A stretch of DNA of 33,169 nt from Planctomycetota bacterium (lineage in GTDB: Bacteria > Planctomycetota > Planctomycetia > Pirellulales > Thermoguttaceae): positions 1 through 33,169 of the forward strand of contig JAKPGL010000052.1 of NCBI GenBank assembly GCA_029550925.1, in the 5' to 3' direction. Shown here piece by piece: positions 20,298-31,637 of this stretch (position 1 is its first letter; each line of letters opens with the position of its first letter). The translations under genes and the position numbers were made by a program. The notes beneath the pieces were generated by a model that was not told the origin of the DNA, made no database searches, and saw nothing but the letters and a program-made list of their open reading frames with translations.

Positions 20298-20313
20298 CAT
20301 TGGTATCTACCCA
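20298..20313. repeat. Orphan copy of the miniature-element terminal repeat
   Basis: CATTGGTATCTACCCA matches the left terminal repeat of the element at 31125-31336 in 15 of 16 positions. I find no inverted partner in the following 200 bases, so this is either a decayed element or a half copy. It lies in the gap between two convergent genes. Confidence 0.55.
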
Positions 20314-27383: not shown

Positions 27384-27400
27384 AACATTTCAGCCGAATG
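27384..27400. repeat. 17-base repeat, copy 1
   Basis: AACATTTCAGCCGAATG is identical to 32887-32903. Both copies lie between genes, here between the symporter and the small membrane protein. Confidence 0.5.
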
Positions 27401-29390: not shown

Positions 29391-29477
29391 TTTGGCAACT
29401 CTGGGGACCGCCGGAAAATCTGAATTATCCCCAGTTTTGAGGTGGGACGGAAGAATTGGCGGTTTCTGAAAAATAGG

Positions 29478-29507
29478 TTGACCTTGCCAAAAAGCCCCGG
29501 GTATGGT
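29478..29507 (+). promoter_or_regulatory. Sigma70-type promoter for the exported-protein gene
   Basis: TTGACC at 29478-29483 and TATGGT at 29502-29507 are 18 bases apart. The boxes match the consensus at five and four of six positions. The leader to the ATG at 29625 would be about 110 bases. Confidence 0.45.
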
Positions 29508-29624
29508 AAGAGAAGCCTGGTGGGTAGAAAGGCGGCAAATGTGCCGAAGGGGGGTGCTTGCGGCCAAGAAGGTGGCCTCTTCCTTCGGTCAACCAGACTT
29601 CTACTGGTGGAAAGGAAATCTTCC

Positions 29625-31085
29625 ATGAAGGACCAAAACGATACGCGGCTGCTTGGGTGGATCGCCGCGGCGGCGATGGGGTGGGTTTTGTCAGCCCCCA
29701 TGGGCTGGGCGGAACAGGCCAATAGGTATGATCTTCGGCCACGCCGAGAGGAAGGCCAGACGGATCGGGTCTCGGTGAGTCTGGAGGTCGAAGGCGTGCT
29801 GGTGGTCTCCGAAGACCCAAAGCACGCCAAGCCCAAGATGAAGGTAACCGCCCAAAACGTGTATGACGAACAGCTTTTGGAGACGGCGCCGAACGGTGGC
29901 GTCCCGGTCCGGAGCGTCCGCTATTATCAGAAGGCCGAAGCGGCTATCCAGGTCGAAGAAGAAACCATCACGCCGCAGCTTCGGCCCGAAATGCGATGGA
30001 TAGTCGGCCAAGCCCAGGGCGGACGTATCATCCTCTTTGCGCCCAAAGGCCCTTTGACCCGGGAAGAGCTGGATTTGGTGGACCTTTTGGGCAATAGTTT
30101 GGTGCTGGATCGGCTTTTGCCGACCGAACCAGTCGATCAAACCAGCTCCTGGAAGCCCAGCGACGAGACCTTGGCCATTCTGCTGGGGCTGGACAAAGTG
30201 AGCCGAGCCGATGTCCAGTGCAAATTGGGCAACGTTACGGAGCGATCGCTGCTGATCGAGATCAGCGGTACGGTGCAGGGGCAAACGGGCGGAGGCCAGT
30301 CGGCTATGGTGCTCAAAGGCAAGTACCGGGTGGACCGGGCCACCGGGCGGATCAATTGGTTGGGGCTGGCCTTGGCCGAACGCCGCACGCCGGGGCCGGT
30401 CCTACGAGGCGTGGACATTACGGCGAAACTGAGCGTGCAGATCGGTCCGTCTCAAGAAGTCCCTGAACTCTCGACCGATTCGCTTCGGGACCTGCCGTTG
30501 GAGGCGAAGGAAGACCTGCTTATTTTGGCTTATCAGCCGCCCGGCAAAGGTTGGCAAATCCTCCATTCTCGCTCCTGGCACGTCAACCGCGAAGAGAATC
30601 AGACGGCCGTCTTGGGGCTGTTTGACCAAGACCAATGGGTAACCCAAGGCACCATTACCTTGTTACCCCCGCTGGCCCAAGGCCAAGACGTTACCTTAGA
30701 ACAGTTCCAACAGGATATTCGACAGGCCCTGGGGAAAAATTTCGGTGAGTTCGTCCAAGCCGGTCAATATCCGGCGCCGGAAAACATGCGGATGTATCGG
30801 GTGGTGGTTCACGGGAAAGTGATAAGCCAAAGTCAAGGCAAACCAGTCGAAACCCCCATGCAGTGGCATTATTACCGCCTGGCCGACGCCCAAGGCCGTC
30901 AGGCCGTCTTCGCGTTCACCTTGGACCCCGACCAACAAGATCGCCTGGGCCAGGCGGACAAGACCCTTGTGGAATCCTTCCGGTTTTTGGACGCCGGCGA
31001 CCGCCCGCTTTCGCCCACGCCTGCTTCCAGCGAAAATAAATCGCCCAAACAGACCGCCCAAAGACCCCCAAAAGATAAAGAGTAA
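29625..31085 (+). CDS. Exported protein of unknown function
   Basis: This 486-residue protein has a clear signal peptide (about 1-29, ending MGWAE) and no other membrane segment, so it is likely periplasmic or outside the cell. The body has long beta-strand-like repeats (RVSVSLEVEGVLVVSED and later YRVDRATGRINWLGLALAERR). A C-terminal part (about 330-465) contains the SYQPPGKGW-like segment and LGQADKTLVESFRFL, reminiscent of the small alpha/beta fold of PsbP or DUF1795 proteins; this is a weak resemblance. It ends in a Lys/Pro/Ser-rich tail. ATG 29625 follows AAAGGA by 8 bases and gives the signal peptide, so the frame from 29442 is too long. The symporter is divergent. I cannot name its function. 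Confidence 0.75.
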   Translation: MKDQNDTRLLGWIAAAAMGWVLSAPMGWAEQANRYDLRPRREEGQTDRVSVSLEVEGVLVVSEDPKHAKPKMKVTAQNVYDEQLLETAPNGGVPVRSVRYYQKAEAAIQVEEETITPQLRPEMRWIVGQAQGGRIILFAPKGPLTREELDLVDLLGNSLVLDRLLPTEPVDQTSSWKPSDETLAILLGLDKVSRADVQCKLGNVTERSLLIEISGTVQGQTGGGQSAMVLKGKYRVDRATGRINWLGLALAERRTPGPVLRGVDITAKLSVQIGPSQEVPELSTDSLRDLPLEAKEDLLILAYQPPGKGWQILHSRSWHVNREENQTAVLGLFDQDQWVTQGTITLLPPLAQGQDVTLEQFQQDIRQALGKNFGEFVQAGQYPAPENMRMYRVVVHGKVISQSQGKPVETPMQWHYYRLADAQGRQAVFAFTLDPDQQDRLGQADKTLVESFRFLDAGDRPLSPTPASSENKSPKQTAQRPPKDKE

Positions 31086-31124
31086 GCAAAGCCGGTCCGG
31101 GAAAAAATTGCCTCCCTTCGCTCT

Positions 31125-31336
31125 CATTGGTATCTACACATCCCAGAGGCCCGTGCAGGAGGCCGGGCAAACCACCAAGGCGGCGGAACTCCTTCGCCTC
31201 TCCCCAGGCCGTCGAGAGGCCGCCCTCGGCAAAGCCGAGGCCGGCTAAAATCCCCGAAGGCCCGGATCACCGTCCTTTCCCGGTTTGCCCTCTCCGGAAC
31301 CTCGGCTCCCTCCACCGGGTTGTGGAGATACCAATG
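31125..31336. mobile_element. Miniature inverted-repeat element with 9-base target duplication
   Basis: The left end is CATTGGTATCTACACA (31125-31140). The right end TGTGGAGATACCAATG (31321-31336) is its inverted copy at 15 of 16 positions. Outside both ends lies the perfect direct repeat CTTCGCTCT (31116-31124 and 31337-31345), as expected for a target-site duplication. Within the 212 bases there is no gene. Further inverted parts (GGGCAAACC near the left, GGTTTGCCC near the right, and CCTCGGC/GCCGAGG in the centre) give the element a fold-back character. This is a non-autonomous element that needs a transposase from elsewhere; the family is not known. Confidence 0.8.
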
Positions 31337-31362
31337 CTTCGCTCTCCCAGAGGGCGGCTTTT

Positions 31363-31430
31363 GTCATTCCCGTGAACGCGGGAATTCAGAATACGTTGAA
31401 AAACTGGGGCCCCGCTTGCGTGGGGATGAC
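31363..31430. repeat. REPIN-like pair of inverted palindromic units
   Basis: The left unit begins GTCATTCCCGTGAACGCGGG. The right unit, read on the other strand, begins GTCATCCCCACGCAAGCGGG. Each folds as a hairpin (CCCG/CGGG and CCCC/GGGG stems) and the two are mirror-placed around a short spacer. This is the classic layout of REP doublets; related GTCAT-CCCG hairpins are widespread in bacteria and are usually moved by REP-associated tyrosine transposases. Confidence 0.65.
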
Positions 31431-31637
31431 ATTGTAGGCTGCCGCCTGAGAATAACAAAATGTTCCCTTTGGCGGCTCTAAGGTCTGGTTTCGCGGATTT
31501 CTGCCAGGAATTCCTTCTTTCGGGATTTGCCAAGCGGCCAGAATTGAATAAGAATAGAAAGGAGCCTGATTAGACGCGGTTTGTCCAGATTCCCGGTTAG
31601 TTGGCGAGCTTATTTTCTCCAAAGAAAGGCGTCCTGG

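Follow-up and report, generated by a model that had tools for sequence, protein, structure and literature searches.

A MITE with IS50-type ends and its multi-copy family in a planctomycete genome

Introduction

The closest described relatives of the element reported here are found in three different settings, and what is said of them below holds for the parts of three papers (PMC2266710, PMC10969869 and PMC1525189) on which this comparison draws. The first is the IS50 (Tn5) subgroup of insertion sequences, for which Table 1 of De Palmenaer et al. 2008 (PMC2266710) gives a length of 1350-1550 bp, a target duplication of 8-9 bp, a YREK signature and the end consensus CW------Y---CA-A--W-, with most of the recorded members coming from proteobacteria. 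The second is made up of two bacterial MITEs, QMITE2 of Coxiella burnetii and Chunjie of Geobacter (PMC10969869), and the part of this review that was drawn on names no IS50-type MITE family. The third is ISRm22 of Sinorhizobium meliloti, an IS4-family element that inserts at the axis of repeated extragenic palindromes (PMC1525189) and is assigned to the IS4Sa subgroup (PMC2266710).

How, then, does the present locus compare? The element lies at 31125-31336 of a 33,169-nucleotide stretch of DNA (the window), which is one contig of a 4.9-Mb draft genome in 233 contigs. An insertion sequence with the same ends, found in relatives, resembles the IS50 subgroup in size, end consensus, signature and duplication length, whereas the window element is geneless, only 212 bp long and departs from the consensus at one position in each end, and the present hosts fall outside the proteobacteria (PMC2266710). 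With QMITE2 and Chunjie it shares a size of about 200 bp, inverted repeats, many truncated copies and a fold-back core, and with QMITE2 a duplication length comparable to the 7-9 bp given there, but the end sequences are different (PMC10969869). Insertion at a palindrome axis and the G/C pairs at the ends of the duplication recall ISRm22 (PMC1525189), which differs in its subgroup, in its six-base duplications and in that no MITE is noted for it in the parts cited (PMC2266710, PMC1525189). The kind of element, its likely mover and its way of choosing a target therefore all have precedents. No IS4- or IS50-type MITE of planctomycetes was found among the open-access papers listed, as represented largely by the openings of abstracts, and within that scope the suggestion made in an initial annotation, that the family is undescribed, is plausible for the family as a whole; the ends themselves belong to a type already known from the IS50 subgroup of the IS4 family.

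Structure of the element

Direct reading of the sequence bears out the borders given in the initial annotation (31116-31345), with an exact 9-bp repeat, CTTCGCTCT, present at 31116-31124 and again at 31337-31345 as the two copies of a target site duplication that brackets the 212-bp element. The terminal inverted repeats match at 15 of 16 positions, the left being CATTGGTATCTACACA (31125-31140, + strand, an A-type end) and the right, read inward, CATTGGTATCTCCACA (31321-31336, - strand, a B-type end). Comparison of the two halves shows that the A-type subterminal stretch at 31141-31193 (+ strand) contains GGGCAAACC at 31165-31173, the inverse of which, GGTTTGCCC, recurs at 31282-31290 within the B-type subterminal stretch at 31246-31320 (- strand). 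Between them, at about 31194-31245, genome matches and folding delimit a core made of a REP-like palindromic repeat beginning CCTCTCCCCAGGCCGTCGAGAGGCC, which includes the hairpin CCTCGGC-AAA-GCCGAGG at 31224-31240.

That such an arrangement is unlikely to occur by chance, as had been argued, is upheld by a scan for ends matching at 15 or more of 16 positions, spaced 60-1500 bp apart and bounded by an exact 9-mer pair, in which the real window gave one case and 200 versions of it shuffled in 2-base blocks gave none in total. The interior is indeed partly fold-back: with DNA parameters the element strand folds to -53.4 kcal/mol, whereas shuffles average -35.6 (sd 3.2, z -5.6) and 0 of 200 reach the value of the real strand. 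The lack of coding capacity likewise holds, since none of the five tested open frames that overlap or touch the element (such frames being 82-143 aa) has a Pfam match up to E 0.1. Rfam gave no match at the gathering score over the whole window and none up to E 1 over 30900-31600. Short, with inverted repeats and an exact 9-bp duplication, devoid of a transposase gene and represented by copies at multiple sites, the element is a MITE, that is, a non-autonomous DNA element.

A family held together by its ends

A search of the own genome with the 230 bases of the element and its duplications finds 40 places. Besides the window element these comprise about nine further copies, either long or half, in which an end is present; the rest are short matches confined to the core. 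The three longest of the other matches are 84, 92 and 94% identical to the window element, so that by sequence the copy is not fresh, and the intact duplication on which the claim of a recent insertion had been based is no proof of it. When up to 2 mismatches are allowed, the 16-base end occurs at 58 places (21 exact matches), compared to none for the reversed control. When all 58 ends are read they resolve into subfamilies that have only the ends in common, with A/B elements of about 200 bp (to which the window element belongs), C elements of about 100 bp and D elements of about 190-210 bp.

Exact duplications of 9-10 bp that differ from one another are kept at 7 of the 17 inward-facing end pairs in the own genome (CTTCGCTCT, CAACAAAGC, CACCAGGAG, CCCGCAAGGG, CCTTATTGG, CGCTTAACG and CTTTGGGGG), which is the outcome that the initial annotation had put forward as a check on transposition. 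The only other two-ended copy of the window subfamily among these 17 pairs (L002) has no duplication. When the end pairs of every genome read are taken together (n=86), 20 carry an exact duplication of 8-10 bp and 37 a duplication with at most one mismatch, compared to 1.4% and 1.9%, respectively, when the left flank of one pair is set against the right flank of another (n=7310). The 86 pairs retain nested and alternative pairings, and the 49 pairs that have no good duplication include nested mispairings.

The window holds a further trace of the same superfamily, a D-type end, CATTGGTATCTACCCA, recognised in the end search at 20298-20313 (+ strand), for which there is no partner in the window with up to 4 mismatches. 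It appears to open a D-type element running from 20298 to about 20470 that has one good end and an interior that resembles, by eye, the other D-type end.

A second MITE-like family, mostly of about 190 bp, has ends (GTAACATTTCAGCCGAATGSAG) that we take to be reminiscent of IS66-type elements. It is present in the own genome at L010 619-813, L012 1217-1377, L014 1764-1957 and L137 1436-1624, the window has lone ends of it at 27384 and 32887, and exact 8-bp flanking repeats were seen by eye at four of its pairs (TGAGCTTG, TAATTTTG, CAAAGTTT and CTTTTGGA). The REP-like core CGCCTCTCCCCTGGCCGTCGAGAGGCCGGC, which spans about 31193-31245 in the window and recurs at L012, L016, L020 and L029 (around 1501), lies inside members of both MITE families and is also present at places with neither kind of end.

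An insertion sequence with the same ends

If the element has no gene of its own, what moved it? An insertion sequence of 1363 bp that shares the element's ends is present in two genomes outside the genus, G179 (locus L186) and Rhodopirellula sp. SM50 (locus L236); the left end of the window element is identical to it at 16 of 16 positions, in genomes of other families. The insertion sequence has a single unshifted open frame of 439 codons at both loci, and the two encoded transposases are 86% identical. The protein matches the NCBIfam model transpos_IS4_3 with E 1.3e-29 and a score of 103.5, under the model cut-off of 160, and Pfam DDE_Tnp_1 with a score of 19.8, below the cut-off of 23. In both proteins the signature Y-(2)-R-(3)-E-(6)-K reads YYWRWLIETYFKLLK, the duplication is exact in SM50 (CCCAGAGGG) and matches at 8 of 9 positions in G179, and all four ends fit the IS50 end consensus, against a background of 16 matches in 33149 window positions. 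The five published marks of the IS50 (Tn5) subgroup that were compared are present, namely length (1363 bp), end consensus, signature, a duplication of 8-9 bp and a single-frame IS4-family transposase. The insertion sequence is a cousin of Tn5, and its preference for sites is open to testing.

The window element itself departs from the end consensus at position 19, a mostly conserved one, where each end has C; elsewhere the conserved positions agree. Of the 58 own-genome ends, 24 fit in full. Because of this position, and because it has no gene, it is classed as a MITE with IS50-type ends rather than as a member of the subgroup. Beyond the ends, no evident likeness between the MITE interior and the insertion sequence is visible by eye.

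A search with the protein gave matches in 7 of 99 genomes and none in the window's genus, where the transpos_IS4_3 model also found nothing in the three genomes, all of these being fragmented drafts. An insertion sequence with matching ends, which the initial annotation had advised looking for, has accordingly been located in G179 and SM50 and was not detected in the genus. Transposase fragments adjoin the same ends in G046 and a variant end in G011, and relatives of up to 41% identity in a plasmid collection are annotated only as transposase or hypothetical protein. Sequence searches against solved structures turned up nothing credible, whether the query was the transposase by itself or a six-row alignment. 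Since no such transposase was detected in the three drafts of the genus, the window copy may be stranded.

Two groups of candidates in the genus were considered and set aside. The own-genome PF01609 (DDE_Tnp_1) genes at L136 and L137 have inverted ends that are unrelated to CATTGGTATCTACACA. Wider end pairs that could have marked autonomous elements, G000 C102 (about 2.3 kb), G000 C232 and G002 C80 (about 2.7 kb), have translations in which no transposase was recognised by eye.

It is highly probable, judging from the sequences, that the window element is a MITE which an IS4-family transposase of the IS50 (Tn5) kind mobilised in trans, and a transposase like that of L186 and L236 most likely moved the window copy. 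Counting against this are the lack of a detected transposase in the three fragmented drafts, the dissimilar interiors, the consensus position missed at the window ends, the profile scores under their cut-offs, the half-fitting target site and the 49 pairs that have no good duplication. Such an enzyme would bind the common ends of 16-19 bp, excise the element and join its ends to target DNA at a staggered cut of 9 bp, after which gap repair would leave the 9-bp duplication; this cut-and-paste chemistry is established for Tn5 and would apply to the window family by extension. The host lineage would once have carried the transposase and then lost it, or the gene may lie in unassembled repeats. 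A multi-copy MITE superfamily would thereby gain a likely mover, in bacteria for which the literature, within the scope given above, yielded no IS50-type MITE, and part of the intergenic repeats in these genomes would be explained for annotation.

Choice of target

The superfamily prefers the centres of C-rich/G-rich palindromes. The 36 usable elements with a duplication of at most one mismatch (the 37 such pairs minus one with a short flank) give a consensus of flanks and duplication of about CYTCY[CCCNNNGGG]RGARG. At the window site the left half (CCTCC) fits this preferred target and the right half does not. Four pyrimidines occupy positions -13 to -10 before 39 of the 58 own-genome ends, compared to 2-9 of 58 for starts from -25 to -18 and 19 of 58 for the start at -17, which borders the tract; the corresponding figures for G002 are 37 of the 83 ends read, against 5-14 (starts -25 to -18) and 22 (-17). 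Over all 36 elements the flanks pair slightly beyond what the consensus gives, the observed value being reached by 60 of 5000 shuffles for 4 positions and by 152 of 5000 for 6 positions; for the 7 own-genome elements such pairing is unsupported (4799 of 5000 shuffles reach the observed value).

The preference is plainest in G179, where all 10 of the ends listed, of 18 counted, abut CTCTYCCASTGRG at one position of a repeated palindrome. Uninterrupted copies of the palindrome carry the site once (4 of 4 read), so that empty and filled copies of one repeat stand side by side. One of the 10 listed ends (L269) has a different interior yet occupies the position in the repeat that the insertion sequence does, and thus the insertion sequence and a different element have their target in common. 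IS50-type elements are in this way linked to an insertion point in the middle of repeated palindromes. When the two flanks of the insertion sequence in G179 were joined and compared with 14 genomes of its genus, no orthologous empty site turned up, only three weak matches of 38-60 bases elsewhere, but the search brought out the repeated palindrome within G179. The landing-site repeat (L273-L276) is a high-copy sequence of about 58 bp, GCAGTTGAAC...TTCACTCTCCCACTGGGAGAGT, with 80 matches listed in G179, many of which are both strands of one copy.

Palindrome-centre targeting, together with a palindromic core common to a second MITE family, adds interest to the locus. A wider proposal, which is speculative and on balance doubtful, would have an IS50-type transposase that favours the axis of intergenic repeat palindromes driving several MITE subfamilies with unrelated interiors; the core of the window subfamily, a palindrome like its preferred target and common to the second, unrelated MITE family, would then let the elements spread their own landing sites.

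Could the mover have been something else altogether? A transposase of an unrelated family with look-alike ends might have mobilised the MITE, with the IS50-type insertion sequence of the relatives as a coincidence or a fellow traveller, and the lack of a detected IS50-type transposase in the genus, the different interiors and the consensus position missed at the window ends all lean that way. Set against these are the identity of the left end to the insertion sequence at 16 of 16 positions in genomes of other families, the agreement of both duplication length and target preference with the insertion sequence, and the different ends of the two own-genome DDE_Tnp_1 genes, which together make an unrelated mover improbable.

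Congeners and the wider order

The open frame at 29442-31085, the stop codon of which ends 39 bases before the element starts, is present in both congeners (G001 and G002) and is followed in each by the same downstream gene. The corresponding spacer lacks the window element or any such end in 2 of 2 cases. As to the empty site that the initial annotation had proposed seeking, the element is absent between the same genes in both congeners, whose spacers have diverged too far for an exact empty site to be aligned. Past transposition, as originally claimed, is borne out by this absence, by the copies with different duplications and by the same-ended insertion sequence in relatives.

The position next to a gene end allows for a MITE that was once moved by an IS50-type transposase and has since been fixed as a host-serving hairpin, for instance as the 3'-end or terminator of the upstream gene. 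The element does come right after the frame that stops at 31085, and RNA of 31100-31380 folds well (z -3.5), but there is no T run at the element's end and the element is not conserved at the same place in the congeners, so a fixed role of this kind appears very improbable. Least credible of all is a static intergenic fold-back, either a REP-like repeat or a transcription terminator with flanking 9-mers that match by chance, as the strong folding (z -5.6), the start 39 bases after a stop codon and the occurrence of the core repeat elsewhere without ends are outweighed by the absence of the arrangement from 200 shuffles, the copies with different exact duplications that contradict it, the lack of the element from the same spacer in both congeners and the want of any Rfam match.

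The 230-base query, run against 60 genomes, has matches confined to the three of the window's genus, and in G001 these are to the core only. The 16-base end gives 119 matches in G002 (controls 1 and 1) and none in G001, where there is one reversed-control match. Across 396 genomes sampled from the order, which to judge by the Rhodopirellula match is probably Pirellulales, the exact end is present in 21, the own genome and G002 included. In G002, pairs of elements of about 100 bp lie a few bases apart at L108, L126 and L140 (435-641). The L140 pair as a whole (207 bp) is flanked by an exact CCCGACGGC repeat, as if the tandem pair had moved as one unit or one copy had later doubled.
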